DNA from: an uncultured Sphingomonadales bacterium
GTDB lineage: Bacteria > Pseudomonadota > Alphaproteobacteria > Sphingomonadales > Sphingomonadaceae
Assembly (NCBI GenBank): GCA_903848655.1
Contig: CAINGT010000078.1
Span: 1 to 33,692, forward strand
DNA: 33,692 nt
Direction of reading: 5' to 3'
A program made the position numbers and the translations under genes. Of the stretch, positions 1,084-23,287 are shown piece by piece. Every line of letters starts with the position of its first letter. The first letter of the stretch is position 1. The notes under the pieces were generated by a model that was not told where the DNA came from, did no database searches, and saw nothing but the letters and a program-made list of their open reading frames with translations.

Positions 1084-2418
1084 TCAAAACCTTTCGGCGG
1101 TCACCTCCAGCCGCCGAAAGCCATGCACAAAGTTGGCGCGGACGCGTTCCACTGCCCCGGTAACATGGATGCGCAAGCGCCGCGCGTGCATTTCTTCCAA
1201 CAGCACCCGCAGTTGCAGTTCGGCCAGCCTTGCGCCGATGCAGCGGTGGATGCCGTGGCCGAATGACAAGTGCCGCCGCGCATTGGCGCGCGACAGGATC
1301 AGTCGGTCGGCATCGGGGAACACCGCTTCATCGCGGTTGGCCGAAAGATACCACAGCACCACTTTATCGCCTGCGCGAATCGGCTGACCAAACAGATCGG
1401 CATCGGTGGTCGCGGTGCGGCGCATATGCGCCAGCGGGGTGACAAAGCGCAGACATTCCTGCACCGCATCGGGGATCAACGCGGCGTCGCGTTCCAGCGC
1501 GGCGCGCTGATCGGGAAAAGTGTGGAGCGCGTGGATCACGCCCGACATCGTGTTGCGCGTGGTGTCATTGCCACCAACGATCAGCAATATCAGATTGCCC
1601 ATGAATTCCTGCGGGCTCATCTGGCTCATCGCCGGGGAATGAACCATCATCGAAATCAGATCGGGACTGGGCGGGCGGCTTACCCGGTCTGCCCACAAGC
1701 GGCTGAAATAATGAGCCATTTCCTGCAAGATCGCAAACCGCTCGTCGGCCAGATCGTGCGCCAGCGTCAATTCGACATCGCCTGCCCAATCGGACCAGAA
1801 TGTCAGCAGGCGGCGATCATCCCACGGAAAACCGAACAGGATCGCCAGCATCCCGGTGGTCAATTCGATCGACACCCGGTCCACCCAGTCAAACGCTTCA
1901 CCAATCGGCAAGGCGTCGAGCACTTGGCCGGTGCGCGCGCGAATCTCGGGCTCCATCCGCACGATTTCTGCCGGAGTAAACGCCGGGGCGACGGTGCGGC
2001 GGCGGCCGGTATGGTCGGGCCGGTCCATCGCGATAAACATCGGCAACTGCCGTTCGGCCAACCGTGCCGGATCAATATCTTTGGGCGGATCGCCAATCGT
2101 AATGCCGCCATAGTGCCATGATGAGGAATAGACATCGGGCAGCGATTCGACGTGCAGCACCGCTTTGTGCGACGTGACATTCCAGTAATCGCCATAAGGC
2201 GTGCCGGTAACTTTGTTGACCGGTGCTTGCGCGCGCATCGCCGCGAACAGCGGCCCCCACGTATCGTTGAGATAGATATCCGACCGGCTGACATCCCATG
2301 GCGCAGTATGGACGGGGCGCGCCTGCGGGTTGGCGCGCAACCATTGGTCGAACGCGGCGGCGGCAGTAGGCGATTGGCGATAGGAAAAGCCCGCGTCGGG
2401 CGTTTGCTGCGTAGCCAT
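1084..2418 (-). CDS. Cytochrome P450, CYP153-like (alkane/terminal hydroxylase type)
   Basis: This soluble bacterial class I P450 has 444 aa from the chosen start. The I-helix oxygen-activation motif is GGNDTT (282-287), the K-helix ExxR is E321-CL-R324, and the haem loop HLSFGHGIHRCIGARLAE carries Cys393 as axial ligand. Segments FIAMDRPDHTGRRRTVAP, FDWVDRVSIELTTGMLA, RRHLSF and the final RANFVHGFRRLEV resemble the CYP153 family, which hydroxylates alkane and fatty-acid chain ends; this is recognised from memory, not by search. ATG 2418 is preferred because GGAG lies 9 nt upstream; ATG 2424 leaves only 3 nt. No ferredoxin or ferredoxin reductase gene lies in the window, so electrons must come from elsewhere. 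A dedicated promoter precedes it. Confidence 0.88.
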   Translation of the reverse strand: MATQQTPDAGFSYRQSPTAAAAFDQWLRANPQARPVHTAPWDVSRSDIYLNDTWGPLFAAMRAQAPVNKVTGTPYGDYWNVTSHKAVLHVESLPDVYSSSWHYGGITIGDPPKDIDPARLAERQLPMFIAMDRPDHTGRRRTVAPAFTPAEIVRMEPEIRARTGQVLDALPIGEAFDWVDRVSIELTTGMLAILFGFPWDDRRLLTFWSDWAGDVELTLAHDLADERFAILQEMAHYFSRLWADRVSRPPSPDLISMMVHSPAMSQMSPQEFMGNLILLIVGGNDTTRNTMSGVIHALHTFPDQRAALERDAALIPDAVQECLRFVTPLAHMRRTATTDADLFGQPIRAGDKVVLWYLSANRDEAVFPDADRLILSRANARRHLSFGHGIHRCIGARLAELQLRVLLEEMHARRLRIHVTGAVERVRANFVHGFRRLEVTAERF

Positions 2419-2465
2419 TGGCATTCTCTCCGCCAAGCGCGTCGACCAAGCGCCCCTTTGGCTGG

Positions 2466-2494
2466 ATTATTCCGCTAACCTACATTGATGTCAA
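2466..2494 (-). promoter_or_regulatory. Strong sigma70-type promoter for the P450
   Basis: On the minus strand: TTGACA (2494-2489), a 17-nt spacer, AATAAT (2471-2466). The -10 box ends 47 nt before the P450 ATG. This suggests the P450 is transcribed independently of the upstream ABC genes. Confidence 0.65.
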
Positions 2495-2502
2495 CAAGCC
2501 AT

Positions 2503-3699
2503 TCACGCCGCCGCGCTGCGTCGTTTGCGTTGCGGCGCGGGGCCGGATTTCATCACCGTGCGGCGGAACAGCAGCGCCCCGCCGCGCACGATCAGCAGCA
2601 CCCACAGCGCTTGCCAGCCCAGCGCGAGCGCGTGCGGCAGCAAATCGGGGCTTTGTGCCGCATGGGCGAGCATGGCATAGGGTGAACTGACCGGAAACAC
2701 TTGTGCCACCCGCTCCACCCAGCTTCCCGGCATTGCCACCGCAAAGCTGGCCATGAAAAACACGATCAGTTGCAGCATCGTGGCGGGCATCGACAGCGTC
2801 TGCACCTCGCGCACCGTATTGGCCAGCCCGCCAATGGTCAGGAACATTGCGCCCAGCAGCAGATAGGCCATCGCAAAATAGGCAAAGCCCAGCGCCAGGA
2901 ACAGCGGCCAGCCGACCGCCGGGGTCGCCAGCAGCGGGATCGCGCGTGCCCCGGCTAGCAGCATCACGCCATAACCGGCACCCCACACTGCGATGCCGAC
3001 CATGCTGACCGCCAGCATCGCCGCCAGCTTGCCCAGAAACAGCGCTTCCATCGGGATCGATGCGGCCAGCACTTCAATGATCTTGTTGGCTTTTTCTTCG
3101 ACCAGATTCGACAGCACCATGCCCGCCAGCAGCATTGTCAGCAAAAACAGCAGCACTTGCCCGGCTTGCGCGGTTACCACTTGGCCGATGTGTTCGTTTG
3201 CCGCGCTGGTCACCACGGCATCGGTGCGCACCGGGGGCGGAGCTTCGGTGCGGGTGGTCAGCGCGCGTGCGGCAAACAGTCCGATCATGCCGCGCCATTG
3301 GTCGATCCGGCCCGGCGTTGCAGTCAGCACCGGAGCGTCGAGCGTGCCGGTTACCACCGCTGCCAATTGCCGCCGTTGCAGCAGGCCGCGCGCGTCAAAA
3401 CTTTGGCCCGGACGCAGCCGTTCGATCACCGCGAATTCGGGCGCGCCGCCGGGCAACTGATCGACCATCGCGGCGCGCGCGGCGATCAGCCGGTCGCCGT
3501 CGTGCCCGACCATCGCGATACCCACCAGCGTGCGATCCAGATCTTGGCGCACGCTCGCACCCAGCATCCCGGCGGCAAGCCCCACAACCACCGGGAACAG
3601 CGGGCCGAGCAGAAAGAAAATGAACGCCTTCGAAAACACCACCGCGACAAAATCGCGCCGCGCAATCGTCCAGATCGCACGCATCGGGTTGGTCAGCAT
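2503..3699 (-). CDS. ABC-2 type exporter permease (NatB-like)
   Basis: This 398-aa membrane protein starts at the ATG at 3699 (MLTNPMRAIWTIARRDFVAV), the usual opening of NatB-type permeases. A first membrane segment (AFIFFLLGPLFPVVVGLAAGML) is followed by a long extracytoplasmic domain of about 170 residues. Five or so C-terminal membrane helices follow, starting near QVLLFLLTMLLAGMVLSNLVEEKANKIIEVLAASI, a characteristic NatB signature. The start overlaps the ATPase stop as TGATG, so translation is coupled. With the ATPase it should form a heteromeric exporter; the substrate is unknown (Na+, drugs and peptides are known for relatives). An open frame continues upstream to 4068, but that part lies inside the ATPase gene and is not used. 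Confidence 0.88.
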   Translation of the reverse strand: MLTNPMRAIWTIARRDFVAVVFSKAFIFFLLGPLFPVVVGLAAGMLGASVRQDLDRTLVGIAMVGHDGDRLIAARAAMVDQLPGGAPEFAVIERLRPGQSFDARGLLQRRQLAAVVTGTLDAPVLTATPGRIDQWRGMIGLFAARALTTRTEAPPPVRTDAVVTSAANEHIGQVVTAQAGQVLLFLLTMLLAGMVLSNLVEEKANKIIEVLAASIPMEALFLGKLAAMLAVSMVGIAVWGAGYGVMLLAGARAIPLLATPAVGWPLFLALGFAYFAMAYLLLGAMFLTIGGLANTVREVQTLSMPATMLQLIVFFMASFAVAMPGSWVERVAQVFPVSSPYAMLAHAAQSPDLLPHALALGWQALWVLLIVRGGALLFRRTVMKSGPAPQRKRRSAAA

Positions 3700-4730
3700 C
3701 AGCGGCGTCCTTTTACGGGGGCATCGTCGGCGGGTTGATCGAGCGCGCGCGCGGCGGCCTCTCCGGCGATGGCGACAAACGCATCGTGCAGCCCGGCGCG
3801 TTCGATCGACAGGCTGAGGATACCGGCCTCCCCTTCGATCAGCGCGCGCAACAGCGGCTCGGTCCCGGATTCGGGCAAGGTGAAGTACCAGAATGCCCCG
3901 CCCTGCGGCTTCGCATCGCAACGCGCATCGCTGGGCAGCGCCGCGCGCCAGCGGCCATCGCGTTCGCGCGTTTCCAGCCGCACTTGCGGGCGCAGCCGGT
4001 CGCGCGCGACATCGACCGGCCCGGCAAACGGCACTTTGCCCGCCGCGATAATCGCAATCGAATCGCACATCCGTTCGGCATGGGCGATGACATGGGTGGA
4101 AAACAGCACGGTTGCCCCGCGCGCCGCCAGCCCACGAATCAACTGTTCGAGCCGCCCCTGGTTGATTGCATCGAGCCCCGAAAACGGCTCATCGAGCACC
4201 ACCAGATCGGGATTGTGCAGCAATGTGCCGATCAGTTGCACTTGTTGCGCCATGCCTTTGGACAATTGGCGGATCTGGCGGTCGGCGGCATGGCCCAATC
4301 CATAGTCTTCGAGCATCGCTTTGGCGCGGCGGCGGCCTTCGGCGAGCGGCACCCCGCGCAGCGCGGCCAAAAACGCAATCGCCTCATAGGCTTTCATCGC
4401 CGGGTAAAGCCCGCGTTCTTCGGGCAAATAGCCGATGCGGTGGGCCAGGTCGGTCGGGTGTTCGCTGCCGAGCACGCGGCGATAGCCAAAATCGGGGTCG
4501 ATAATCCCCAGCAACATCCGCAGCGTGGTGGTCTTGCCCGCGCCATTGGGGCCGAGCACGCCATAGATTGCGCCGTGCGGCACCGCGATATCGACACCAT
4601 CGACCGCCAGTGTCCCGTCAAAGCGTTTGACCAGCCCGCGCGCTTCGATGGCCAGATCACGCGGATCGGGCGTTTCTCGCAAACCGGCTCCATTGCCCAA
4701 GACGGCCAAATCCCCCACACTGTGCTCCAT
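3699..4730 (-). CDS. ABC transporter ATP-binding protein (NatA-like)
   Basis: This 343-aa nucleotide-binding subunit has Walker A GPNGAGKTT (60-68), the signature LSKGM (156-160), Walker B LVVLDEP (Asp180, Glu181) and the switch histidine STHV (His213). A C-terminal extension of about 100 residues (VARDRLRPQVRLETRERDGRW...) resembles the DUF4162 tail of NatA-type ATPases. It pairs with the overlapping permease gene. The ATG at 4730 gives a 24-residue leader before the conserved LAIEARGLVKRF; an internal start is possible because no clear Shine-Dalgarno is visible. It is divergent from queG. Confidence 0.9.
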   Translation of the reverse strand: MEHSVGDLAVLGNGAGLRETPDPRDLAIEARGLVKRFDGTLAVDGVDIAVPHGAIYGVLGPNGAGKTTTLRMLLGIIDPDFGYRRVLGSEHPTDLAHRIGYLPEERGLYPAMKAYEAIAFLAALRGVPLAEGRRRAKAMLEDYGLGHAADRQIRQLSKGMAQQVQLIGTLLHNPDLVVLDEPFSGLDAINQGRLEQLIRGLAARGATVLFSTHVIAHAERMCDSIAIIAAGKVPFAGPVDVARDRLRPQVRLETRERDGRWRAALPSDARCDAKPQGGAFWYFTLPESGTEPLLRALIEGEAGILSLSIERAGLHDAFVAIAGEAAARALDQPADDAPVKGRR

Positions 4731-5850: not shown

Positions 5851-7392
5851 TTAATCCATCGCGCGCGATTGCGGTGCTGGCAGCGCATCGCCGGTCTCGC
5901 ACCCTTTGGCGCAGCAGCGGCCCGGCTGTTTGTCGCGCGACGGGCCCTGACCCAGATCGAGCGCGCCGCGATCGAGCAGCGACTGGACCAGCTCTTTGCG
6001 ATCCTGCACCGGGTAATTGCGCAAGATTTCCAGCTTCATCGCCTCGGGCGAGCCGCCGCCGTGCAAGCTGATCACGGAATACCAGCCGCCGGTTTCGGAC
6101 GCGGTCAGATCCTCGATAAAGCGCGCGACATTGGCGCGGTGGGCATAAGGAATATCGTGTCGGCCGCGCAGCAGATCGGCAATCATCGGCGCAGTGGCCG
6201 GATTGTGGTCCTCTTCGGGCGAAGGCAGCCCCACCACCAGCCCGCCCGACACTTCGTGCGCAATCCGGTGCATGTCATAAATCTGGTTGGCGATCAACAG
6301 CTTGCCAATATTGGCATAAATCTGTTCAGGCCGGTAATTGCCCGCCGGATCGTGTTCGCCGAAGGTCGATGCCGCAACCCCGCAGGCATAAAACCCCTCG
6401 GTAATCTTGATCAGGTCGACCATGCGGTCGCGCAGATGCGGGATACGATCAAGATCGAGCCCGTTGGCCTCGCTCATCAAGGCCCCCGCCCCGATCAGCA
6501 GATCGCCAAACCCGGCGCGCGCACCAATGCAACTGTGGCGGTGGTGCGTGGCATAGTTGGTGGTCATCAGGTGGGCTTCTTCGATTTCGCCATCGATGAA
6601 CACTTTGTCCCACGGCACGAACACGTCATCGAAGTGGACTGCAGCGACGGATTGCGCGAATTTGGCACTGAACTTCGCCGCCGCCACCCCCGGACGGCCC
6701 GCTGGTCGGGCAACGACGGTAACCCCCGGGGCATCAACCGGAACCGCACAAGCAATCGCGAAATCGCGGTCTTCTTCGCGCATCCGCCGACACGGCAGCA
6801 CCAGATAGTCGTGCATATAGGGTCCGCCGGTCACAATCGCCTTGATACCCGCGATAACCACGCCATCGGCGCGCCGTTCTTTGACCCGGACATAAGACAG
6901 CGGCTCGGCCTGGTCGGCAGGGCGCCGTGACCGATCACCTTTGCCATCGGTCATCGCGATGCCGATCGCCAGATCCTGCGCTTGCGCGTGGGCGATATAA
7001 GCCTTGAGCCGGTCGTGGTGTTCACCACCGGTGCGTTCGGTAATGCGCCAGGTTGCTTCCCACAGACCGTTGAACGCATCATGCGTCAGATAGCGCTGGG
7101 TGCAACCGGCATATTGGCAGGTCAGGCGGACGGCTTCGAGCTTGTCCAGCAAATCCTGGCGGCTGCGGTTGATCGCGAGAAAGCGGTTGGTGGGTGCGCC
7201 GGACAGGCCCGGCGTCAGCATGACCGCGCTGTGGCTGGCATTGCGCGCAAAATCATAGGTGATGCCGGTGGCATTGATGCCGGGCTCAAGCCGGGGATCG
7301 TCTGCCACCGATGGCACCAGATCGCCGCCAACGTAAACCCGCGGGCTTAGCCGCCGCAACGATTCGCGGTAGTCAACAGCCGACATCAACAT
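5851..7392 (-). CDS. AbfD/HpaB-family flavoenzyme lacking two Fe-S ligands
   Basis: This 513-aa protein of the 4-hydroxyphenylacetate 3-hydroxylase / 4-hydroxybutyryl-CoA dehydratase family aligns almost end to end with clostridial AbfD as I remember it (DYRESLRRLSPRVYVGG, AMTDGKGDR, HGGGSPEAMK). AbfD holds a 4Fe-4S cluster with Cys99, Cys103, His292 and Cys299. Here, numbering from ATG 7398, Cys99 and His286 are kept, but the other two positions are Tyr103 and Ala293. The cluster is therefore probably absent, and the protein may act as a flavin monooxygenase or isomerase. A C-terminal extension carries CCAKGC. ATG 7392 is chosen: GGGGGA precedes it at about 8 nt, and MLMSA matches AbfD's MLMTA. 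It is divergent from a CoA-transferase gene across an operator region. No flavin reductase gene is present. Confidence 0.85.
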   Translation of the reverse strand: MLMSAVDYRESLRRLSPRVYVGGDLVPSVADDPRLEPGINATGITYDFARNASHSAVMLTPGLSGAPTNRFLAINRSRQDLLDKLEAVRLTCQYAGCTQRYLTHDAFNGLWEATWRITERTGGEHHDRLKAYIAHAQAQDLAIGIAMTDGKGDRSRRPADQAEPLSYVRVKERRADGVVIAGIKAIVTGGPYMHDYLVLPCRRMREEDRDFAIACAVPVDAPGVTVVARPAGRPGVAAAKFSAKFAQSVAAVHFDDVFVPWDKVFIDGEIEEAHLMTTNYATHHRHSCIGARAGFGDLLIGAGALMSEANGLDLDRIPHLRDRMVDLIKITEGFYACGVAASTFGEHDPAGNYRPEQIYANIGKLLIANQIYDMHRIAHEVSGGLVVGLPSPEEDHNPATAPMIADLLRGRHDIPYAHRANVARFIEDLTASETGGWYSVISLHGGGSPEAMKLEILRNYPVQDRKELVQSLLDRGALDLGQGPSRDKQPGRCCAKGCETGDALPAPQSRAMD

Positions 7393-7418
7393 GCTCATGC
7401 TCCCCCGACCGGCAACGC

Positions 7419-7485: not shown

Positions 7486-8664
7486 ATGAACCCTTCCGAT
7501 GCAGCAATTGCGGCAGATGCCTTTCAGGGCTTGCGCGTGCTCGATCTCGCCACTTTCATCGCCGGACCCTATTGCGCGACATATCTGGCCGAATTCGGCG
7601 CCGATGTCGTCAAAGTGGAACTGACCGGCGCGGGCGATCCGATTCGCAAATTCGGCACGATGACCGAGTGCGGCGATACGCTGGTGTGGCTGAGCGAGGG
7701 CCGCAACAAACGCTCGATCGAGCTCGATCTGCGGGTGGCCGATGATGTTGCCACGATGAAAGCGCTGGTGGCCGAGGCTGATGTGCTGTGCGAAAATTTC
7801 CAGCCGGGCACGCTGGAGCGCTGGGGCCTTGGGCCTGATGTCTTGCAGGCGATCAACCCGCGCCTAATCATCGCCCGCGTTTCGGCTTATGGGCAGACCG
7901 GGCCTTATCGCGACCGACCCGGATTCGGGCGTATCGCCAATGCGTTCAGCGGCATTTCCTATTTGTGTGGCGATCCCGGATTGCCACCGGCATCGCCCGG
8001 CACAGCCACGCTTTCGGATTATATTTCAGGCGTCTATGCAGCACTTGGGGTGCTGACGGCGCTACACGCACGGGCGCGCACCGGGCGCGGGCAAATTGTC
8101 GATGTCGGGCTGTATGAAGGCACGTTTCGCTTGCTCGATGAATTGGCCCCGGCGTTTGCGCGCAGCGGCTTTGTGCGCGAACGCATGGGTGCCGGAACGG
8201 TCAATGCCGTGCCGCATAGCCATTATCCCACCGCCGACGGGCTGTGGGTGGCCATCGCCTGCACCAATGACAAGATTTTCGCGCGGCTGACCGCGATCAT
8301 GGGGCGCATGGATGTAACCGGTGACGGCATTTATGGCACAATTGCCAAACGCGAAGCGCGCCGCGCCGAAGTCGATGCCTTTGTCACCCACTGGACCAGC
8401 GCCATGACCCGCGAAGCGGTGCTGGCGGCGTGCGAACACGGCCAAGTCCCCTGCGGACCGGTCTATTCGATCGAAGAAATCTTTACTGATCCGCAATATG
8501 CCGCGCGCGGCAATCTGGTGGAGCTGACCGATCCGCGCGCGGGCGAACTGACTTTGCCAAATGTGTGCCCGCGCCTGTCCGAAACGCCGGGCAAATTGCG
8601 CTGGGCCGGCCGCGCGCTCGGCGCCGACAATGCGGCGGTGCGCAAGGACTGGCTGGGCGATTGA
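7486..8664 (+). CDS. CaiB/BaiF family III CoA-transferase (1)
   Basis: This 392-aa enzyme moves CoA between carboxylic acids. The N-terminal GLRVLDLATFIAGPYCATYLAEFGADVVKVE, the FQPGTLERWGLGPDVL block and YGQTGPY are family hallmarks. The catalytic aspartate is Asp178 in TATLSDYISGVYA. Full length is present. It starts at ATG 7486 shortly after GGAAC. It is divergent from the AbfD-like gene under a shared operator and converges with the CitE-like gene. It is only distantly similar to the second CoA-transferase at 13197-14387, so the two probably use different acids. Donor and acceptor cannot be told from sequence. Confidence 0.92.
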   Translation: MNPSDAAIAADAFQGLRVLDLATFIAGPYCATYLAEFGADVVKVELTGAGDPIRKFGTMTECGDTLVWLSEGRNKRSIELDLRVADDVATMKALVAEADVLCENFQPGTLERWGLGPDVLQAINPRLIIARVSAYGQTGPYRDRPGFGRIANAFSGISYLCGDPGLPPASPGTATLSDYISGVYAALGVLTALHARARTGRGQIVDVGLYEGTFRLLDELAPAFARSGFVRERMGAGTVNAVPHSHYPTADGLWVAIACTNDKIFARLTAIMGRMDVTGDGIYGTIAKREARRAEVDAFVTHWTSAMTREAVLAACEHGQVPCGPVYSIEEIFTDPQYAARGNLVELTDPRAGELTLPNVCPRLSETPGKLRWAGRALGADNAAVRKDWLGD

Positions 8665-8695: not shown

Positions 8696-9583
8696 TTATT
8701 CGCGCTGCGCTTGCGCCAGCACCGCCCGCGCTTTTTCGACAATCGGATAGTCGATGAAATAGCCATCGACCTGGATCGACGCCGATCCGCTGTCCTCTGC
8801 CGCATCGAACGCGGCGATGATCTTGGCGGCGCGGCTGACTTCTTTTTCCGAAGGGATAAAGGCGCGGTTGGTCGGTTCGACTTGCTGCGGATGGATCAGC
8901 AGCTTGCCCTGAAAGCCGAATTTTACGCCCGTTGCAACCGAATGGGTAAAGCTGGCGGTGTCGGCCAAGTCGATATGCACCGTGTCGATTGGCGGCTCCA
9001 GCCCGCCGACGCGCGATGCCAACACCAGCGCTCCGCGCGCATGGGCCAGTTCAGGCTCATCCGCGCTCCATTTCATGCCCATGTCGCGCGTAAAATCGCC
9101 CGCGCCGAATGACAGGCGGCGCATCCGGGTGCCACTGGCGATGATCGCGTCGAGCGCGTGAATACCCTTGCCCGTTTCGATAATCGGCATCAGATCGATC
9201 CCGCCCACCGGCAAGCCGCGCTCGCGCTCGAACTCTGCCATCAGCCAATCGATCAGGAACAGCTCTTCAGTCCGTTCGACTTTGGGCAGCACGATCCCGT
9301 CGAGCCATGGCCCGATCACCGCATCGAGATCGCGCAAACACCAGATCGTGTCGGTGGCATTGATCCGGACATAACCGAGCGATGCGCGCGGGGCTTGCAG
9401 CGCGGCCACGACGGTTGCCCGGCTGGCGACTTTGTCGGCCACCGCGCATGCATCTTCCAGATCGAGGATGACCGCATCGGCCCCCGCGCCAAAGACTTTT
9501 TCGACTTTGCGCGGATGATTGGCCGGGGCGAACAAAAAGCTGCGGATGGTGCGCGGCGATTTCGTGGCGCGGGGGTCAGACAT
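8696..9583 (-). CDS. CitE-like HpcH/HpaI lyase (acyl-CoA C-C lyase)
   Basis: This 295-aa TIM-barrel enzyme belongs to the citrate-lyase-beta / malyl-CoA lyase group. Visible residues are DLED (41-44), Arg73 in RINATD, LPKVE with Lys101, Glu136 in PIIETGKGI and Asp163 in FGAGDFTRDMG (Glu136 and Asp163 as Mg2+ ligands), then KLLIHPQQVEPTNRAFIPS. The family cleaves or hydrolyses 3-hydroxyacyl-CoA esters such as malyl-CoA or citramalyl-CoA. The start is ATG 9583, within an 8-nt overlap with the GntR gene stop, so the two are co-translated. An open frame runs further upstream to 10048, but that segment is inside the regulator gene. Specificity is unknown. Confidence 0.9.
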   Translation of the reverse strand: MSDPRATKSPRTIRSFLFAPANHPRKVEKVFGAGADAVILDLEDACAVADKVASRATVVAALQAPRASLGYVRINATDTIWCLRDLDAVIGPWLDGIVLPKVERTEELFLIDWLMAEFERERGLPVGGIDLMPIIETGKGIHALDAIIASGTRMRRLSFGAGDFTRDMGMKWSADEPELAHARGALVLASRVGGLEPPIDTVHIDLADTASFTHSVATGVKFGFQGKLLIHPQQVEPTNRAFIPSEKEVSRAAKIIAAFDAAEDSGSASIQVDGYFIDYPIVEKARAVLAQAQRE

Positions 9584-10358
9584 TGCGGGCCTCGCTTTCT
9601 TTGGTGCGGGTAAGGTCGATCGAATAGGAAAACCGCCCGGCGGGGTGCTCGCTGACCGAAACTTCGAACGCGCGGCCATCGCTGTCGCGGTAGCGCCGCA
9701 CGATGATAAACGCGGCGCTGCCGGCTTCGACATCGAGCGCCGCAGCCTTTTCCTGCGACAACGCGCCCGCAAACAGTTCGGCGGTAATGTCAGTGGCAAA
9801 GACCCCGTAATGGCTTTCAACCAGGCGGAATGTCGGCGTGCCCGATTGACCGATTTGCGCGGCAATTCCGGCATATTTTTCAGGAACGTAAATATCGCTC
9901 CAGCACACGGGCGGACGCCCGGCTTCGGTGCGGATGCTTTCGATGCGCGCCCAGCGCGTGCCGACCGGGCATTGCAGCAGGCTCGCCAGCGCAATATCGG
10001 CTTCGATGATCGTGGTGCGCCGGACCGCAAGCCGGGTTTGCGGCGCATATTGCAACAGTTGATCCATCGAGCGCAGTTTCTGCACCATCACTTGCGCCGG
10101 ACGGTCGCTCAGCACCACCGTCCCGCGCCGCCGCTGACGGCTAATCATGCCCTTTTCTTCAAGCCGGCTCATCGCCTCGCGGATGGTAAAGCGGCTAACC
10201 TTGAACCGCGTGGCGAGCGCCTGTTCGGGTTCAAGCTGTTCGCCCACCGGCCAATGGCCCTCGGTGATCTCGCGCTGCAAGTGCTCGGCGATTTCGACAT
10301 AGCGGGGGATATGCTCGATGACGTTCGGGTGACCATCGGCATTTGCGGCAAGCGCCAT
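9576..10358 (-). CDS. GntR-family regulator, HutC/UTRA subfamily
   Basis: This 260-aa transcription factor has an N-terminal winged helix at about residues 18-85 (PRYVEIAEHLQREI...EQALATRFKVSRFTIREAMSRLEEKGMISRQRRRGTVV). A UTRA ligand-binding domain spans about 100-245 (WARIESIRTEAGRPPVCWSDIYVPEKYAGI...FEVSVSEHPAGRFSYSIDL). Family members are usually repressors released by a pathway metabolite. It heads an operon with the CitE-like lyase (8-nt overlap). A palindrome at 10364-10379 sits directly upstream of the ATG, consistent with autoregulation. Because the motif recurs at four intergenic places in the cluster, this is the most likely regulator of that regulon (inference). Confidence 0.93.
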   Translation of the reverse strand: MALAANADGHPNVIEHIPRYVEIAEHLQREITEGHWPVGEQLEPEQALATRFKVSRFTIREAMSRLEEKGMISRQRRRGTVVLSDRPAQVMVQKLRSMDQLLQYAPQTRLAVRRTTIIEADIALASLLQCPVGTRWARIESIRTEAGRPPVCWSDIYVPEKYAGIAAQIGQSGTPTFRLVESHYGVFATDITAELFAGALSQEKAAALDVEAGSAAFIIVRRYRDSDGRAFEVSVSEHPAGRFSYSIDLTRTKESEARNV

Positions 10359-10379: not shown

Positions 10380-10458
10380 GACTGAACGCCAACCTTAGTT
10401 GAAACTTGCGCCCATTGCCAAATGTTTGATCCGCTGTTGCCACAAAATGGAGATCGTC

Positions 10459-11235
10459 ATGACCGACAAGAAAGTGCTCGTCATCGTGCCCTTCCCGCTT
10501 GACGATCAGGGCGTTGCCAATCGCAAGGACCAATTGCAGGCGGTCGATCTGGGGCCGGGGATCACCTTCGACTTCCGCCCGGTCAAGGCGGCTCCCGCGC
10601 TCTATGACAGCCACCACGATTATGTGCTGGCCGACATTTCGATTTTCGAGGCGGGTCTGTCGGCACAAGATGATGGCTATGATGCGGTGTGCATCGACAC
10701 CATGAGCGATTCGGGCATGAACGCGCTGCGCTCGGTGCTGGACATCCCGGTCATTTCGCCGGGGCGCGCCTCGTTCCTGACTGCGCTGATGTTCGCCAAC
10801 AATTTTTCGGTGCTGACGCAGTGGGACCCGTGGAAGGGTCTTTATAGCAAAACGCTGCGCGAATATGGCCTTGAACACAAATGTGTGTCGATCCGATCCC
10901 CCAATATCCCGCCCGATGTTTCCAACTTGCTGGGCGGCAAAGAGGAAGACGTGTTCCCCCTGCTGCTGGCAACCGCCGAACAGTGCATTGCCGACGGGGC
11001 AGAGGCGCTGTGCCTTGGGTCAACCACCATGCACCAAAGCCATGCCTGGCTGGCCGAACGACTGCCGGTGCCGATCATCAATCCCGGCCCGCTGACATAC
11101 AAATTGGCCGAGACCGCGCTTGCGCTCAGCCTCAGGCACAGCCGGGCAAGCTATCCCAAGCCGCATGTCTATATGCCCGACATGATCCGCGGGATGCTCG
11201 ATGGCGGCGCGCGCGTGCAGCAGGCCAAAGGCTAA
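10459..11235 (+). CDS. Asp/Glu/hydantoin racemase-fold protein (1), catalytic cysteines absent
   Basis: This 258-aa protein has the overall pattern of the Asp/Glu/hydantoin racemase superfamily. Racemases and maleate isomerases use two cysteines, one in a (G/A)C-x-x-DPG loop and one in an LGC loop. Here the first loop reads IDTMSDSG (Thr81 at the usual Cys position) and the second LGSTTMHQS (Ser188). The paralogue at 20046-20798 has the same changes. Two-base racemisation is therefore unlikely; decarboxylase, isomerase or hydrolase activity is open. ATG 10459 has GGAG 6 nt upstream and is preferred over ATG 10447. It is divergent from the GntR gene and followed by a repeat and an MFS gene. 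Confidence 0.82.
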   Translation: MTDKKVLVIVPFPLDDQGVANRKDQLQAVDLGPGITFDFRPVKAAPALYDSHHDYVLADISIFEAGLSAQDDGYDAVCIDTMSDSGMNALRSVLDIPVISPGRASFLTALMFANNFSVLTQWDPWKGLYSKTLREYGLEHKCVSIRSPNIPPDVSNLLGGKEEDVFPLLLATAEQCIADGAEALCLGSTTMHQSHAWLAERLPVPIINPGPLTYKLAETALALSLRHSRASYPKPHVYMPDMIRGMLDGGARVQQAKG

Positions 11236-11361: not shown

Positions 11362-12576
11362 ATGATCGAGACCGCATCCGAGCAGCGTGCACAAGGCGGT
11401 CTGTCCACGCTGTTTGCCACGTCGCTGATCCAGACGATGGCCTCGTTCACGGTCAGCGCGCCGCTGACCGTGTCAATCGCAATCATTGGTGATGCCCATT
11501 TGCCCGAAACGTGGATCGGGTATTACACCAGCTTGCTCTATCTGTCCGCGATGGCCGGATCGCTGCTGACCCCGCGGCTGATCGGCAGCTTTGATGGGGG
11601 CCGGATCCAGCTTGGCGGATTGGCGGCGACCTTGATCGGGTTTGCGCTGTTTGCCCGGATCGCCGCCAGCGGGACCGGCCTTGCATTGGCGCTGGGGGGC
11701 ATTGTCCTGATGGGTCTGGCCTATGGCGTGATCGTGCCGGCCAGCGCATTGCTGCTTGCCGATCGCTTCGCGCCCCGGTGGCAGCCGCTGGTGGTTTCGA
11801 TCCGCCAGACCGGCGTGCCGGTCGGAACCGCGCTGGTGGCGCTGATCGCGCCGCTGGTTGTGCTGCACTGGGGTTGGCGCAACATGGCGCTGGTGATTGC
11901 ACTGGCGGGCGGGATCGGCTTTGCGCTGTGCATCCCGGCGCTGATCGCCATTCCGCGCAGGCCGCGCGGATTAGCGCGCCCGGCAAACCTGCTCTTCGCT
12001 TTGCGCGAAACATTTCGTCATCCCGCCACTTTGCGGCTGGCGCTGGTGTCAGGCGCTTACGGCATCAATCAGGCGGCGCTCACGACATATCTGGTCCCCA
12101 GCCTGGTCTGGCTGCACCACTTGTCGATCGGCCGGGCCGCCGGGTTCCTTGCCATTGCGACCGTTGCCGGTGCCGCAGCCCGCATCGGTTTTGGCGGCAC
12201 CACCGCGCGTTTTGGCAGGCCTTATACGCATCTCAGACTGATCGGGCTGATCTCTGGACTGGCTTGGGCGCTGGTACTGTGGCCTGCCCCCACGGCGCTG
12301 CGGCTGACGTGCGGCGCGGCCATGCTCGGGGCCACCGCGATGGGCTGGAACGGCATTCTGCTTGCCCAACTGGCGCACGAAGCGCCGCGCGGCAAGACGG
12401 CGGACGCGGTCGGCGCGGGAACCGCGCTGGCCTATGGCGGCGTGCTGACCGCGCCGTTCCTCTATGCGGCGGTGCTCGCGCTGGCGCACAGCAAGACCGC
12501 CGCAATCGCCGCGCTGATCGTGCTATCGACCACGGCGGGATTGGTACTGCTGGGCCGCGGTTCAGCCCGTGCGTGA
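11362..12576 (+). CDS. MFS transporter
   Basis: This 404-aa protein has about 12 hydrophobic segments and no signal peptide. They include IGYYTSLLYLSAMAGSLLTPRL, LALALGGIVLMGLAYGVIVPASALLLAD and AALIVLSTTAGLVLLG. The loop RFAPRWQPLVVSIRQTGVPVGTALVALIAP resembles the conserved motif region of CynX/NimT/YbfB-like members. It probably moves the substrate or an intermediate across the inner membrane. The start at ATG 11362 directly follows a repeat that leaves no recognisable Shine-Dalgarno, so the true start could be downstream. The last 15 nt overlap the convergent isochorismatase gene. Confidence 0.87.
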   Translation: MIETASEQRAQGGLSTLFATSLIQTMASFTVSAPLTVSIAIIGDAHLPETWIGYYTSLLYLSAMAGSLLTPRLIGSFDGGRIQLGGLAATLIGFALFARIAASGTGLALALGGIVLMGLAYGVIVPASALLLADRFAPRWQPLVVSIRQTGVPVGTALVALIAPLVVLHWGWRNMALVIALAGGIGFALCIPALIAIPRRPRGLARPANLLFALRETFRHPATLRLALVSGAYGINQAALTTYLVPSLVWLHHLSIGRAAGFLAIATVAGAAARIGFGGTTARFGRPYTHLRLIGLISGLAWALVLWPAPTALRLTCGAAMLGATAMGWNGILLAQLAHEAPRGKTADAVGAGTALAYGGVLTAPFLYAAVLALAHSKTAAIAALIVLSTTAGLVLLGRGSARA

Positions 12577-13194
12577 GGTCAGGTGCGCGATGGCCTGCGC
12601 TTCGCCGATCACTTCGGCATATTTGGCCTGAAGATCGAACAGATTGGCCTCGTGCGGAGCAGGATGCCGATCAGCGCAGGCATCGCGCACCACAAACGGC
12701 GCAAAGCCCGCTTGCAGCGCATCAAGCGCCGTCGCGCGCACACAGCCCGATGTCGAAAATCCGGTCACGAGCACCGTATCGACGCGCAGCGCCGTCAGCG
12801 TCGAAGCGAGCGAGGTGCCGAAAAACGCCGAAGCATATTGCTTGGTCACCACGATTTCCCCGTCGCAGGGGGCCAGATCGGGATGGAATGCGCCCAGCGG
12901 CGATCCGGGGGTAAACACTTTCAGCGCGGGCACTTTGCGAAAGAACAGCCCGCCATCGCGCCCGCCCGCCTGAAACATCACATTGGTAAAAATCACCGGA
13001 ATCGCCGCCGCGCGGGCCGCGTGCAACAGCCGCACATTGCTCGCCAGCGCATCTTCGCAGGCGGCATACAAGGGTGATGCCGGATCGAGGTAGGCCATCA
13101 CCACATCGACAATGACCAGCGCAGGACTGGTGCCGAAGCGCAAAGACCCGTCGAACGCGCCGACATAGTTGGCGGTAATCTCGTCGAACGCCAT
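12562..13194 (-). CDS. Isochorismatase-fold cysteine hydrolase (1), amidohydrolase-like
   Basis: This 210-aa protein has the family catalytic triad Asp30 (VIVDVV), Lys118 (VTKQYASAFFGTSL) and Cys151 (STSGCVRATALDALQAGF). The TSGCVRAT signature is typical of N-carbamoylsarcosine amidase and maleamate amidohydrolase (NicF), so hydrolysis of a small amide or carbamoyl compound with release of ammonia is the best guess. It is the last gene of a minus-strand operon, starting 2 nt after the CoA-transferase stop. Its position behind HyuA and HyuB fits stepwise opening of a cyclic imide or hydantoin-like compound (inference). Confidence 0.88.
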   Translation of the reverse strand: MAFDEITANYVGAFDGSLRFGTSPALVIVDVVMAYLDPASPLYAACEDALASNVRLLHAARAAAIPVIFTNVMFQAGGRDGGLFFRKVPALKVFTPGSPLGAFHPDLAPCDGEIVVTKQYASAFFGTSLASTLTALRVDTVLVTGFSTSGCVRATALDALQAGFAPFVVRDACADRHPAPHEANLFDLQAKYAEVIGEAQAIAHLTSRTG

Positions 13195-13196
13195 TG

Positions 13197-14387
13197 TCAG
13201 ATCACACCGCGCGCGCGCAGCGCATCGAGGTCGGCGGCGGTCAGCCCGAGCAGTTCGCCATAGATGTCGGAATTGTGCTGCCCCACCACCGACGGCGCGG
13301 GCGAACGGATGCTGCTGGGCGTTTCCGACAGGCGCGGCACCACGTTCTGCATCCGCAACGGGCCAAAGCGCTCGGTCTCGACCGTGACAATCGCTTCACG
13401 CGCGGCAAAGTGCGGGTCTTCGAACATTTCGGGCGCGCGATAGACCCGGCCCGCCGGGATCGAATGCGCAATCATCAGCGCATCGACTTCGGCCACGGTC
13501 AACGTGCGGGTCCAGTCGTTGATCAGCGCGTCGAGTTCGATCTGATTTTTGCCGCGCGCGATATGCGTGGCATAACGCGCGTCGTCGGCCAGTTCCGGGC
13601 GGCCCATGGCGGTGCACAGCCGTTTGAAAATCATGTCGTTGTTGGCACCGATCATGAATTCCTGATCGCTGCACTGATAGACATTCGAAGGCGCGATGCC
13701 GGGCAAAAACGACCCCGACCGTTCGCGGATGATCCCCATATGATCGTATTCCGGGATCACGCTTTCCATCACTTGCAGCACGCTTTCATAGAGCGCCGCA
13801 TCGATCACTTGCCCGCGCCCGGTCGCTTGGCGCGCATGCAGCGCGGCCAACACACCCATGCAGCCATACGTCGCGGTCAGCGAATCGCCGATCGAAATCC
13901 CCATCCGGCTGGGCGGGCGATCCGGTTCGCCCACGATATAGCGCCAGCCGCCCATCGCTTCGCCGATCCCGCCAAACCCGGCGCGATCCGAATAAGGGCC
14001 GGTCTGGCCATAGCCCGACATCCGCGCGATAATCAGCCGCGGATTGATGGCGTGCAAGACATCGGGGCCAAGCCCCCATTTTTCCAGCGTACCCGGCTTG
14101 AAATTCTCGATCAGAATATCCGCCGTGGCAATCAGCCGCCGCACCAGGTCCTGCCCTTCGGGTACGCGCAAATTGGCCGAAACCGACCGCTTGTTGCGCG
14201 CGATGACCTCCCAGTTGACTTTGTCGTGGCCCTGCCCCCACACGCGCATCGGATCACCCGCGCCCGGCGGCTCGACTTTGATGACTTCGGCACCCATGTC
14301 GCCCAGCAACTGGCCGCAAAACGGGCCTGCGAGCAATTGCCCCAGTTCGATAACCCGCAGCCCGTTCAAAGCACCCTGATTTTCCAT
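13197..14387 (-). CDS. CaiB/BaiF family III CoA-transferase (2)
   Basis: This 396-aa formyl-CoA-transferase-like protein opens LNGLRVIELGQLLAGPFCGQLLGDMGAEVIKVEPPGAGDPMR. Further hallmarks are ENFKPGTLEKWGLGPDVL, YGQTGPYSDRAGFG, and Asp168 in GISIGDSLTATYG as the catalytic aspartate. It begins 3 nt after the hyuB stop and ends 2 nt before the isochorismatase start, so it is part of one operon. It should activate a pathway acid as a CoA ester for the HMG-CoA-lyase-like enzyme encoded in the same operon (inference). Confidence 0.92.
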   Translation of the reverse strand: MENQGALNGLRVIELGQLLAGPFCGQLLGDMGAEVIKVEPPGAGDPMRVWGQGHDKVNWEVIARNKRSVSANLRVPEGQDLVRRLIATADILIENFKPGTLEKWGLGPDVLHAINPRLIIARMSGYGQTGPYSDRAGFGGIGEAMGGWRYIVGEPDRPPSRMGISIGDSLTATYGCMGVLAALHARQATGRGQVIDAALYESVLQVMESVIPEYDHMGIIRERSGSFLPGIAPSNVYQCSDQEFMIGANNDMIFKRLCTAMGRPELADDARYATHIARGKNQIELDALINDWTRTLTVAEVDALMIAHSIPAGRVYRAPEMFEDPHFAAREAIVTVETERFGPLRMQNVVPRLSETPSSIRSPAPSVVGQHNSDIYGELLGLTAADLDALRARGVI

Positions 14388-14390
14388 CGG

Positions 14391-16268
14391 TTATTCAGCC
14401 GCTGCGCGTGCAGCCCACACCGGCTGCACCGGCGCGGGAAGGCCGGTTTCCGCCTGGCAGTTCGCGCGCAAGGTTTCGATATCCGGCCCGAAATCGAACA
14501 GCGCCAGCGCTGCCGGCCGGGCTGCGCGCAAGTGTGCGCGCAAGGCCTCGGTCGCGTCCGTGTCGATCTCGCCCGCGTCGTTGGCCACCACGCCATAGGC
14601 GCGCGCGCCCGCCGGGGTGACCAGACCCTGGGTGATTTCCTTGCCCACCAGCGCGGCTGGACGCTCCAGCGGATCGCCCCAACCGCCGCCGCCCCACGTG
14701 ATAAAGTGGAGCTGGTCCCCGGCTTCGACCGGATAAGCATCGGTCTTGTTGCCGATCACGATCTGCGTGCCATCGGCTTTTTCGATGATCTTGCGCGAAC
14801 GCTTGGCAGGTTCACCGCCATTGACCCCCCATGGCGGCACAAACCAGCGGTCATCGTGCGCCGACACATGTCCGGCGGCGAGGAAGCGATACGTCATGTG
14901 AATGCCGTTGCCGCCACGGTGCAGCCCTGCCCCGCCACTGTCGGGCGCGGTGTCATAGCGCTCGATCATCAGCGGGAAATAGCGTTCGAGAAACTCGTTG
15001 GGAACATTGGTGAAACCGGGCCAGAGCGAATGTCCGTCGGGACCATCGCCCAGCGGGCGACCGGGAATCCCGCCAAAGCCGATCTGGAACAGTTGGAACC
15101 ATTCATTGTTCGCGTCATAGCCCGAATAGAACAAGTGCGGCGATGACGAGAACCCGGCGGCATTGAGAAATTCCGGGGTTTTCTGGCCGAGCAAACCGCC
15201 CAGAACGTCGAAAATCCGCCCCAGCGCATGAGTCCGTCCCGACAGCGCCGCCGGAAATGTCGGCTTAAGCAGCGAGCCTTGGGGAATGCGCACATCGATC
15301 AGATCATAAAACCCGTCGTTGAACAGGATCTGCGGATCGAACACCATAATCATGTAAATGCCGAAGAACATGCGGAACATGTTTTCATTGAGCAGGAAAT
15401 TGATCGCATATTCGCTTTGCGGATCGGTACCGTCAAAATCGAGCACCACGCGTTCGCCCTCGCGCCACATCGTGCATTTGATCTTGAACGGCCCTGCGCC
15501 CATGCCATCGTCGCAGATATAGTCTTCAAAGCTGACCGGCGCTTCGCCGATTGCCCCTGCGATCAACTGCTTCATCGCGCGATGGTTGCGCGCCAGCAAT
15601 TCGTCGGTGGCCGAAACATAGACTTCATCGCCGAACCGGTCGGCCATTTCGATCACCCGGCGTGCGGCCACCCGGCACGCGGCGATCAGCGCGTTCAAAT
15701 CGGCCTGGCACCAGTCGGGCTTGCGCGTCTGATGCATAATCAGTTTGACCACATCGGCGTTGAACACGCCTTTGCTCCACAGCTTGACCGGGGGAATGCG
15801 CACGCCTTCTTCAAAGATCGACCGCGAATCGATCGGCATCGATCCAACCACTTTGCCGCCGATATCGGCCTGATGGCCAAACATCGCGGTATAGCCGATC
15901 AGCCGACCGGTCTTGAACACCGGCAGCAGCACCAGCCAGTCGTTCGAATGGCTGACCGCGCCAGCGCAACTGTAAGGGTCGGACAGCAGGATCATGTCGC
16001 CGTCTTCGATCGTGCCGTCATAGCTATCGAGAAAACCACCGATAAAGCTGCCGAACTGGCCGACGATCATCCGCCCGGCGTGATCGGCGATCAGCGGAAA
16101 GGCATCGCCTTGTTCCCGGATGCCGGGCGACATCGCGGTGCGGCTGAGCGTCGCATCCATTTCGTTGCGCGCATTGCGCAAGGCGTTTTCGATAATGTCG
16201 AGCGTAACCGGGTCAATCGGGCGCTTGGCAAACGGGGTCGAGTTCGTTTCGATGATCTGAGCGCGCAT
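14391..16268 (-). CDS. hyuB: Hydantoinase/oxoprolinase subunit B
   Basis: This 625-aa protein of the HyuB family (N-methylhydantoinase B, 5-oxoprolinase C-terminal half, acetone/acetophenone carboxylase subunit) carries typical stretches: DPVTLDIIENALRNARNEMDATLSRTAMSPGIREQGDAFPLI, LLSDPYSCAGAVSHSNDWLVLLPVF, DSGGAGLHRGGNGI, and the glycine-rich HFITWGGGGWGDPLERP. With HyuA it should form an ATP-dependent enzyme acting on a cyclic amide or hydantoin ring, or a carboxylase. GAGGGAG lies 8 nt before ATG 16268 and overlaps the hyuA stop, giving translational coupling. Confidence 0.9.
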   Translation of the reverse strand: MRAQIIETNSTPFAKRPIDPVTLDIIENALRNARNEMDATLSRTAMSPGIREQGDAFPLIADHAGRMIVGQFGSFIGGFLDSYDGTIEDGDMILLSDPYSCAGAVSHSNDWLVLLPVFKTGRLIGYTAMFGHQADIGGKVVGSMPIDSRSIFEEGVRIPPVKLWSKGVFNADVVKLIMHQTRKPDWCQADLNALIAACRVAARRVIEMADRFGDEVYVSATDELLARNHRAMKQLIAGAIGEAPVSFEDYICDDGMGAGPFKIKCTMWREGERVVLDFDGTDPQSEYAINFLLNENMFRMFFGIYMIMVFDPQILFNDGFYDLIDVRIPQGSLLKPTFPAALSGRTHALGRIFDVLGGLLGQKTPEFLNAAGFSSSPHLFYSGYDANNEWFQLFQIGFGGIPGRPLGDGPDGHSLWPGFTNVPNEFLERYFPLMIERYDTAPDSGGAGLHRGGNGIHMTYRFLAAGHVSAHDDRWFVPPWGVNGGEPAKRSRKIIEKADGTQIVIGNKTDAYPVEAGDQLHFITWGGGGWGDPLERPAALVGKEITQGLVTPAGARAYGVVANDAGEIDTDATEALRAHLRAARPAALALFDFGPDIETLRANCQAETGLPAPVQPVWAARAAAE

Positions 16269-16281
16269 TGGTACTACTCCC

Positions 16282-18330
16282 TCACGCCAGGTTGATCAGG
16301 ATATTGCCGACTTTGTCGACCACGGCAATGCAGCCACTTTCGATGAGCGTGGTCGAATCCATTTCCACGACAATCGCGGGTCCGGGGATCACATCGCCCT
16401 GTTTCAGCTTTGATCGGTCATAGATCACGGCGGCTTGTTCGCTACCGTCCATCCACAGCACATGATCGCGCATTTTGGCCGCACTCGGATCGCCATTGCC
16501 CACCGGCAGTTCGGCGGCGGGCAGATTAAGCGCCTGCCCCAGCGCCACCGCGCGCAAGTTGACGATTTCGTGCGGGGTATCCATGTTGAACGTGAACAAG
16601 CGCAAATGCTCTTCGTCAAAGCGCGCAAGAATGCCCGCGATCCCATCGCGCAACAGCACTTCGGGCGTGATCGTCAGCGGCACTTCGAACGCCTGACCGG
16701 CATAGCGCACGTCGATTTCGAACGCACTTTCGATCAGCGCAGCGGGCACCCCGTCCGAGGTAAGTTCTGCGCGGGTCTGCTGCGCCATGTCGGACAAGAT
16801 GGCATCCAGCTCTTCAGCCGTGGTCGTATGCGCCAGCCGCGAGAACGAACGCGCGGTTTCGGTGCGCATCCGTGTGGTCGCATCACCCAGCGCGCACAAC
16901 ACCCCGGGCGACACCGGCGATACCGCCGGCCAACTGCCCATCAGCCGCGCCACCGCGTTGACATGCAGCGGCCCTGCCCCGCCAAACCCCATCAGCGCAA
17001 AATGGCGCGGATCATACCCCTGCTGCACCGAAATCATCCGCAGCGCGCCGAACATATTCTCGTTCACGATGTCGATAATGCCGCGCGCCGCCGCCATCAG
17101 ATCGATGCCGAGCGCATCGGCAATCGTCTGCACCGCGCGTTTGGCGCCTGCGCGATCAAGCTGAAACGTGCCGCCGAGCAGATTTTCCGGAAGATAGCCG
17201 AGCACCACATTGGCATCGGTCACGGTCGGCAGTTCGCCGCCTTTGCCATAAGCCACCGGCCCCGGCACCGCGCCCGCGCTTTGCGGGCCGACGCGCAAGG
17301 CTTTGGTCAGTTCGGGCACATAAGCAATCGACCCGCCGCCCGCGCCCACGGTCTTCACATCGAGCGACGAGGTGCGCACCGACAGATGCCCCACTTCGGT
17401 GGTCCGCACGCGCCGTGGCTCAAGATTTTCGATCAGCGCCACATCGGTCGAGGTCCCGCCGACATCGAGCGTCAGAATATTGGTCAGCCCCGCATTGCGC
17501 GCCACCCACAAAGCGCCCGTCACGCCGCCCGCCGGGCCGGACATCAGGATATTGACAGGATGTTCTTCGGCCTTTTGGGCGGACATCAGCCCACCGTCCG
17601 ACCGCAGCAACGACAGCTTGCCGATCATGCCCGCTTTCGCCAGCCGGTCGCGCAAGCTTGCCACATAGCGCCCGACCACCGGGCGCACGGCGGCATTGGC
17701 AACCGTCGTCAACGTGCGCTCATACTCCTGCATTTCGGGCAGGACTTCGTGGCTGAGCGAAACCGGCACGTCCTGCATGATTTCGCGCGCCATCGCGCCG
17801 ATGCGCGTTTCATGGTCGCCGTTCACATAAGCATTCATCAGCGATACCGTGATCGCCTCAACCCCTTGCTCTTTAAGCTGGATCAGCGCGGCGCGCGCGG
17901 CCACTTCATCAAGCGGGCGAACTTCCTGCCCCGCTGCATTCATCCGCCCGCCGACTGCCACGGTATCTTCGAGCGCGGCCAGCGGCTTGGGCTTGGGCCA
18001 GATGATCCACCCGGCAAGGCCGCCCGGCACATAAGACCGCGCGATCTGCATTACATGGCGATAGCCTTCGGTCGTGATCAGGCCAACGCGCGCACCCTTG
18101 CCTTCGAGCATCGCATTGGTTGCCACCGTCGTGCCATGCAGAAAGAACGCGATTTCGTTCGCATCGATTCCCGCAGCGCCGCAAATCGCGTGCACCCCGG
18201 TCAGAATGCCTTCGGAACTGTCATGCGGGGTGGACGGCGTCTTGTGTCGCCAGAATGCGCCCGATTCTGCATCGAACAACAGCAAATCCGTGAAGGTTCC
18301 CCCCACATCGACACCCAAGCGATAGCCCAT
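16282..18330 (-). CDS. hyuA: Hydantoinase/oxoprolinase subunit A (ATP-dependent)
   Basis: This 682-aa member of the HyuA family has an actin-like ATPase fold with two phosphate loops, GVDVGGTFTDLLLFD near the N-terminus and LDVGGTSTDVALIE near residue 290. Other family blocks are FLHGTTVATNAMLEGKGARVGLITTEGYRHV and GFGGAGPLHVNAVARLMG. Relatives hydrolyse N-methylhydantoin, 5-oxoproline or hydantoins with ATP, or carboxylate acetone or acetophenone; these roles cannot be separated by eye. AAGGG lies 7 nt before ATG 18330. It sits 15 nt behind the HMG-CoA-lyase-like gene. No biotin- or gamma-subunit-like carboxylase partner is present, which mildly favours the hydrolase reading. Confidence 0.9.
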   Translation of the reverse strand: MGYRLGVDVGGTFTDLLLFDAESGAFWRHKTPSTPHDSSEGILTGVHAICGAAGIDANEIAFFLHGTTVATNAMLEGKGARVGLITTEGYRHVMQIARSYVPGGLAGWIIWPKPKPLAALEDTVAVGGRMNAAGQEVRPLDEVAARAALIQLKEQGVEAITVSLMNAYVNGDHETRIGAMAREIMQDVPVSLSHEVLPEMQEYERTLTTVANAAVRPVVGRYVASLRDRLAKAGMIGKLSLLRSDGGLMSAQKAEEHPVNILMSGPAGGVTGALWVARNAGLTNILTLDVGGTSTDVALIENLEPRRVRTTEVGHLSVRTSSLDVKTVGAGGGSIAYVPELTKALRVGPQSAGAVPGPVAYGKGGELPTVTDANVVLGYLPENLLGGTFQLDRAGAKRAVQTIADALGIDLMAAARGIIDIVNENMFGALRMISVQQGYDPRHFALMGFGGAGPLHVNAVARLMGSWPAVSPVSPGVLCALGDATTRMRTETARSFSRLAHTTTAEELDAILSDMAQQTRAELTSDGVPAALIESAFEIDVRYAGQAFEVPLTITPEVLLRDGIAGILARFDEEHLRLFTFNMDTPHEIVNLRAVALGQALNLPAAELPVGNGDPSAAKMRDHVLWMDGSEQAAVIYDRSKLKQGDVIPGPAIVVEMDSTTLIESGCIAVVDKVGNILINLA

Positions 18331-19969: not shown

Positions 19970-19985
19970 GTCCGCTCCCCGCGCC

Positions 19986-20014
19986 TTGACTCCGCCAAGC
20001 TGTATACATACTAT
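19986..20014 (+). promoter_or_regulatory. Promoter with FCD-type GntR operator in the spacer
   Basis: TTGACT (19986-19991), a 17-nt spacer and TACTAT (20009-20014) form a good sigma70-type promoter for the racemase-NTF2-NTF2 operon. The last eight spacer bases are the palindrome TGTATACA (20001-20008), which fits the GT-N2-AC pattern of FadR/VanR-type operators. Repressor bound here would cover the polymerase site. Confidence 0.65.
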
Positions 20015-20045
20015 TCCAACACAAGATAGCGGGTGAGGAAGTTTT

Positions 20046-22568: not shown

Positions 22569-22581
22569 CTTTGCGGTCCTT

Positions 22582-23268: not shown

Positions 23269-23287
23269 CGGGTTTTGCACCTTGTTG

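Follow-up and report, generated by a model that had tools for sequence, protein, structure and literature searches.

Described relatives

4-Hydroxybutyryl-CoA dehydratase (AbfD) is the textbook radical dehydratase that combines a flavin with an Fe-S cluster; residues E257, E455 and Y296 are catalytic, and the two glutamates are thought to act in isomerisation. The Pfam domains HpaB_N and HpaB (PF11794 and PF03241) span the entire superfamily to which AbfD belongs, including the HpaB-type phenol monooxygenases (2yyg, 6qyh, HadA, TftD). The gamma-butyrobetainyl-CoA TMA-lyase BbuA is comparable to the protein described here in its working only, with no homology implied: according to its report, BbuA is a flavin enzyme that performs a redox-neutral elimination on a CoA ester and has about 10% identity to 4-hydroxybutyryl-CoA dehydratase (4HBD), and the authors assign it to the acyl-CoA dehydrogenase superfamily in the broad sense (PMC8364193). 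The skatole enzyme of PMC13101512, a flavoprotein of group E according to that report, was considered for comparison and set aside.

A sister clade of AbfD

The window analysed here, a stretch of 33,692 nucleotides from an uncultured Sphingomonadales bacterium, encodes on the minus strand (5851–7398) a protein of 515 amino acids, counted from its ATG, that we denote T; its third codon, at 7392, the boundary given in the preliminary description of this DNA, is also ATG and a possible alternative start, with which that of AbfD aligns. In a phmmer search of the PDB, the best matches of T were the Nitrosopumilus maritimus 4HBD (6vjr; E = 4.6e-87) and the Clostridium aminobutyricum AbfD (1u8v; 1.4e-84), to which it is 34–35% identical, compared with 1.9e-29 for the best HpaB entry, so that the E-values lie over 50 orders of magnitude apart; identity to HpaB-type enzymes is about 17–22%. 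Both Pfam domains are recognised with ample scores (HpaB_N 245 bits, HpaB 190 bits, against cut-offs of 35 and 25), whereas the NCBIfam HpaB models TIGR02309 and TIGR02310 yield 115.4 of the required 480.2 and 81.2 of the required 885.2 bits. T is the sole HpaB_N protein detected in the host genome, which is 97% complete.

A structure model of T, built with 48 family sequences as input (mean pLDDT 79.9), has the AbfD fold, superimposing on 1u8v over 429 aligned residues with a Z score of 47.2 and a deviation of 1.7 A, and on 6vjr with a Z score of 46.9; the HpaB entries fit less well (Z 34.5–37.9, 2.8–3.0 A). Residues 435–515 lie outside the structural alignment with 1u8v, and pLDDT falls below 50 at residues 434–454 and in the tail, 479–515. 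Sequence and structure comparison agree with the preliminary description of this DNA, which had placed the protein with AbfD and not with aromatic hydroxylases: T is nearer to AbfD than to HpaB in both sequence and fold. Nevertheless, T is not AbfD, given the differences in ligands and catalytic residues detailed below, and it is not a typical HpaB either, falling short of the model cut-offs and missing the neighbouring reductase. Relatives in a plasmid collection are annotated as either 4-hydroxyphenylacetate 3-hydroxylase or 4-hydroxybutyryl-CoA dehydratase, and neither name fits the results for T.

The best 80 of 274 relatives are 57–87% identical to T and come almost entirely from Pseudomonadota. 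In a maximum-likelihood tree of 55 rows, rooted at the midpoint only, 23 T rows form a single branch with 100/100 support next to 12 AbfD rows, so that the phylogeny bears out the kinship with AbfD; T is not nested within the AbfD clade but forms a separate branch, and the clades that lack the cluster ligands fall outside T plus AbfD. Of 195 genomes from the genus, 8 have T-type genes (at least 57% identity), as do 8 of 398 genomes drawn across the phylum, the host genome itself being counted in both; below this level, long matches in the two draws do not exceed 38% identity, and two short fragments reach 39%. Besides Pseudomonadota, a small number of Actinomycetota (Smaragdicoccus, Rhodococcus) carry such genes, and one match, titled as a Flavobacteriaceae MAG (L047), may be misbinned. 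No relatives of T were detected in the viral contigs searched, and the literature searched, in which subscription papers were mostly out of reach, contained no recognised description of the family.

Several more distant relatives were also observed. The long branch beside AbfD, L178, counted among the 12 AbfD rows of the tree, retains the CxxxC and HxxxxxxC spacing of the ligands and lacks the E455 motif. In the actinobacterial L120, L121 and L122, on Rhodococcus plasmids, IVLKEV replaces the CxQRC motif and the cluster ligands are missing; AMP-binding ligases are encoded in the vicinity of these genes, accompanied once by a CoA-transferase. Another clade from the same genus as the host (L005, L006, L019, L020, L022) carries an ITDAKGDR motif and likewise lacks the cluster ligands, the C99 loop being gapped in L005, L006, L019 and L020. 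These ligand-free clades (L120–L122; L005, L019, L132) resemble T in the absence of AbfD cluster ligands but differ in occupying separate branches and in lacking C99, C290 and the tail.

Replaced ligands and new cysteines

We compared 81 family rows (the window plus the best 80 of 274 relatives, the set to which all invariance counts refer) with 28 canonical AbfD rows, L178 being left out. In the phmmer alignment, the AbfD ligands C99, C103, H292 and C299 correspond to C99, Y103, H286 and A293 of T. All four ligands are present in 28 of the 28 AbfD rows, where K300 is invariant as well, and in T the retained C99 (7102–7104, this and all following residues on the minus strand) and H286 (6541–6543) are found together with Y103 (7090–7092) and A293 (6520–6522) in all 81 rows. 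The same ligand columns recur in all 7 T members of a second genome draw, some of which may overlap the 80. The preliminary reading of these positions, with only the first cysteine and the histidine kept, thus extends to the whole family. R102, M149, T150, K153, T190, R156 and H446 are also common to AbfD and T.

The catalytic residues have changed as well. I443 (6070–6072) occupies the place of E455, and C290 (6529–6531) that of Y296, both without exception among the 81 rows, compared with Glu and Tyr, respectively, in 28 of 28 AbfD rows; position 251, the column of E257, is divided in T between Thr (57 of the 81 rows) and Val (24), and R294, also invariant, stands for K300. The loss of AbfD's Glu/Glu/Tyr set along with two ligands makes a change in the chemistry of T very probable, as the preliminary description had supposed, to judge from these alignments.

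Two of the changes, both close to lost ligands, had been overlooked in that description. C94 (7117–7119), five residues ahead of C99, is invariant in 81 of 81 rows (the window plus the best 80 of 274), a position held in AbfD by Gly (27/28) or Ala (1/28), and C290 lies one helical turn from H286 in a helix that spans residues 272–311 of the model. Counted in sequence, C94, C99, C290 and H286 again amount to three cysteines and one histidine. The exchange of C103/Y296 of AbfD for Y103/C290, together with the new cysteine before C99, reads as a package. Given these new cysteines, the statement that the protein is without its Fe-S ligands holds for two of the four, which are replaced in every member, but the absence of a cluster is not to be concluded from it, and a re-ligated Fe-S or metal site would be just as possible. 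The retention of C99 with two added cysteines suggests that the site is in use, since the ligand-free relatives L120–L122 do not keep C99. The gain of a cysteine is by itself no proof of a ligand because other cysteines, C217 (new and invariant, 81/81) and C203 (76/81), were gained elsewhere in the same rows.

The oxygen tolerance proposed for T is plausible, several of the carriers being aerobes; ligand loss would be unnecessary for such tolerance because the PDB entry of the N. maritimus AbfD, 6vjr, is titled as oxygen tolerant.

A conserved cysteine tail

The C-terminal tail spans Q491–C500 (QPGRCCAKGC; 5899–5928, minus strand). The preliminary description had listed its CCAKGC motif (C495, C496, C500) as absent from AbfD and its conservation as a point to check: CCxxGC is found in none of the 28 AbfD rows and in 79 of 81 T rows (the window plus the best 80 of 274), the two rows in which it is not readable being L045, at a contig end, and L049, with unread bases. 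Entropy is 0.00 bit at C495, C496, G499 and C500 (79–80 rows with a letter), whereas the flanks are variable (mean 2.29 bits at 479–490 and 2.80 bits at 501–510); exceptions are confined to single rows at Q491 and at P492 and to a few rows at G493. The linker from R477 to Q491 measures 11–15 residues in the 80 rows that are not cut by a contig end. Both TGC and TGT occur at each of the three tail cysteines across 78 loci from the best 80 of 274, so that it is the residues that are conserved and not the DNA.

CCxxGC is also present in 7 members obtained by sampling 398 genomes evenly across the phylum; these members may overlap the 80. On the Mycolicibacterium gilvum plasmid pMSPYR101 (L034), an unannotated fragment at 12001–12558 comprises only the last third of a T gene, 61% identical there, and ends in QPGKCCATGC; located near an IS1380 transposase, it is probably a remnant. 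A Pfam search with four tail peptides at E-values up to 10 yielded nothing, a comparison with the PDB yielded a single chance-level match (E = 0.85), and in the 80 loci (best 80 of 274) no other ORF of at least 100 amino acids carries CCxxGC in the final 60 residues. The motif does not occur among the 12 literature matches listed of 433.

Alternatively, T may be a cluster-free flavoenzyme with redox-active thiols. A disulfide formed by C94, C99 and C290 would then lie next to the FAD and be re-reduced or re-oxidised by the CCxxGC tail, a swinging dithiol arm similar in layout to the cysteine arms at the C termini of mercuric reductase and thioredoxin reductase. The tethering of an invariant cysteine motif by a variable linker, the invariance of several core cysteines and the replacement of two AbfD ligands in every member are in line with such an arrangement. 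However, the invariant G499 and the nearly invariant QPG make the tail resemble a binding loop more than a plain dithiol, and H286 would be retained without need. We consider a thiol enzyme rather unlikely.

Gene neighbourhood

T sits in a conserved catabolic gene cluster. Divergent from T, a class III CoA-transferase (7486–8664, plus strand; PF02515, E = 9e-115) is followed on the minus strand by a CitE-like C-C lyase (8696–9580; PF03328 at 8888–9544), the upper end of which is an estimate: the ORF is open to 10048 (450 amino acids), its first third overlaps the gene of a GntR/UTRA regulator (9576–10358, minus), and the true start is probably near 9580. Then come, on the plus strand, an Asp/Glu racemase family protein (10399–11235; PF01177) and an MFS transporter (11362–12576; PF07690) and, on the minus strand, isochorismatase-family hydrolase 1 (12562–13194; PF00857), a second class III CoA-transferase (13197–14387; PF02515), HydB (14391–16268) and HydA (16282–18330), for which the nearest NCBIfam models are the caprolactamase beta and alpha subunits, both under cut-off, an HMG-CoA lyase-like protein (18346–19257; NF004283, 298 bits against a cut-off of 246) and a second GntR regulator, of the GntR/FCD type (19244–20155). 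A second Asp/Glu racemase family protein (20046–20798; PF01177) and two SnoaL-like proteins (20798–21627) lie on the plus strand, and a TauD-family dioxygenase (21711–22718; PF02668), isochorismatase-family hydrolase 2 (22585–23280; PF00857 at 22633–23214) and a TonB-dependent receptor that is a possible uptake component (24914–27487; PF00593/PF07715) on the minus strand. The window also contains, beyond the catabolic cluster, an EcoEI R-like restriction helicase subunit (28205–30550) and, close to the contig end, an IS4/5-type transposase (32816–33655); at 1084–4730, a cytochrome P450 (best NCBIfam model SolI, under cut-off) adjoins an ABC permease and ATPase.

Neighbourhood counts were made over the best 80 of 274 loci, in only 45 of which 5 kb is available on both sides of T. 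Homologues of the window proteins were found most often for CitE (40/80), followed by the GntR/UTRA regulator and TauD (25/80 each), the first CoA-transferase (21/80), HydA (20/80), isochorismatase hydrolase 2 (19/80), HydB (18/80), isochorismatase hydrolase 1 (12/80), the HMG-CoA lyase-like protein (11/80) and the TonB-dependent receptor (8/80). Much of the gene set accompanies T in Novosphingobium MAGs, HTCC2080, an HTCC2207-like MAG and IMCC14465, with varying order and content; the catabolic route to which the cluster points is common to marine and sphingomonad bacteria. In Luminiphilus, the loci further include an acyl-CoA dehydrogenase and proteins of the MmgE/PrpD and MaoC types, the latter matching mesaconyl-CoA hydratase. 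More distant members have instead, within 5 kb, a TetR regulator (18/80) and a TetR-linked isochorismatase (14/80). Both styles are combined in 2 loci, and 19 of the 80, some with short flanks, have neither.

An isochorismatase-family gene lies within 5 kb of T in 31 of these 80 loci and in 23 of the 45 with full flanks. The only two such matches of the host genome are both in the window, and those of IMCC14465 (2/2), of genome G234 (2/2) and of HTCC2080 (3/3) are all about 11 kb or less from T, as judged from contig number and coordinates; the 12 other genomes searched have 1–17 matches each. The available portion of the literature searched contained no catabolic route matching the cluster.

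The neighbouring CoA-transferase and CitE-like genes indirectly suggest that T uses a CoA ester. On such a substrate, T might also work as a lyase or isomerase with FAD alone, through a redox-neutral elimination or double-bond shift, the cysteines and the tail being structural. H286 is kept as a possible base, and BbuA offers a precedent, an elimination at C4 by an enzyme that needs oxidised flavin according to its report (PMC8364193); the precedent is loose, however, as the same report leaves the mechanism open and notes a ferredoxin gene in the gene cluster. The invariant C94, C290 and tail would be left unexplained, and the AbfD residues E257 and E455 are gone. We regard a flavin-only enzyme as unlikely.

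A group D two-component monooxygenase of the HpaB type, hydroxylating or opening a ring ahead of an amidase, would by analogy follow the order of RutA and RutB. The HpaB_N and HpaB domains and the TetR-associated neighbourhoods speak for such a role, as does a flavin reductase encoded at any place in the genome, which 23 of the 24 carriers tested possess; the remaining assembly, which may be incomplete, has none. A reductase partner encoded beside T was, nonetheless, rejected. Neither of the two PF01613 matches of the host genome, located on C117 and C54, shares a contig with the window, and a phmmer search seeded with the host reductases found a reductase beside T in a single locus (L043) of the best 80 of 274, although a reductase may be encoded at a distance. 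A match in L054 was dropped because the seed ORF, from locus L116, is probably not a reductase, and the ORF search found none in L070, L075 and L099, where three PF01613 coordinates could fall. Together with the scores far under the HpaB cut-offs and the much closer relationship of T to AbfD in sequence, fold and tree, the rarity of an adjoining reductase makes a phenol-type monooxygenase improbable.

Proposed working of T and its implications

We propose, with a probability of roughly 40%, that T is an FAD-dependent catabolic enzyme of an AbfD-derived clade that split from AbfD and in which the cofactor site was rebuilt to hold a metal or a re-ligated Fe-S cluster; this site is tentatively ranked above the thiol enzyme, the flavin-only lyase and the monooxygenase, all of them close calls. 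FAD would still be bound, to judge from the retained MTDxKG[DE]R motif and T190, and the CoA-ester pocket may persist from AbfD. Beside the flavin, C94, C99, C290 and H286 would constitute a new site with three Cys and one His. The tail on its linker could close over this candidate site or provide a ligand or electrons; joint action of these residues and the tail is suggested by their shared conservation. Counting against a metal site, two ligands are certainly lost to Y103 and A293, the tail and residues 434–454 are modelled with pLDDT below 50, and 19 of the 80 loci (best 80 of 274) have neither neighbourhood.

Judging from the neighbours, the pathway would proceed from removal of amide nitrogen (the isochorismatase hydrolases and HydA/HydB) through CoA activation (CoA-transferase) to cleavage (the CitE-like and HMG-CoA lyase-like proteins). 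The substrate of T would probably be a branched or unsaturated acid derived from a nitrogen compound, as a CoA ester or amide, acted upon before the CitE-like cleavage, and T would catalyse its elimination or isomerisation and not the hydroxylation of a phenol; that the substrate is a breakdown product of a pyrrole or imide is a guess. A more doubtful extension holds that the cluster moved and was not lost, so that C94, C99, C290 and H286, with one cysteine of the tail, would carry a re-ligated Fe-S or metal centre by the FAD, with new redox chemistry. The enzyme would then belong to an aerobic pathway, not described so far, for a compound that contains nitrogen and a methyl branch.

The T clade is widespread and probably consists of flavin enzymes. 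With the ligands, the acid-base residues and the Tyr/Cys pair exchanged together and a new cysteine tail added, it represents a natural experiment on the role of the cluster and its replacement or re-ligation, and a test case for the remaking of a radical enzyme for a new reaction.
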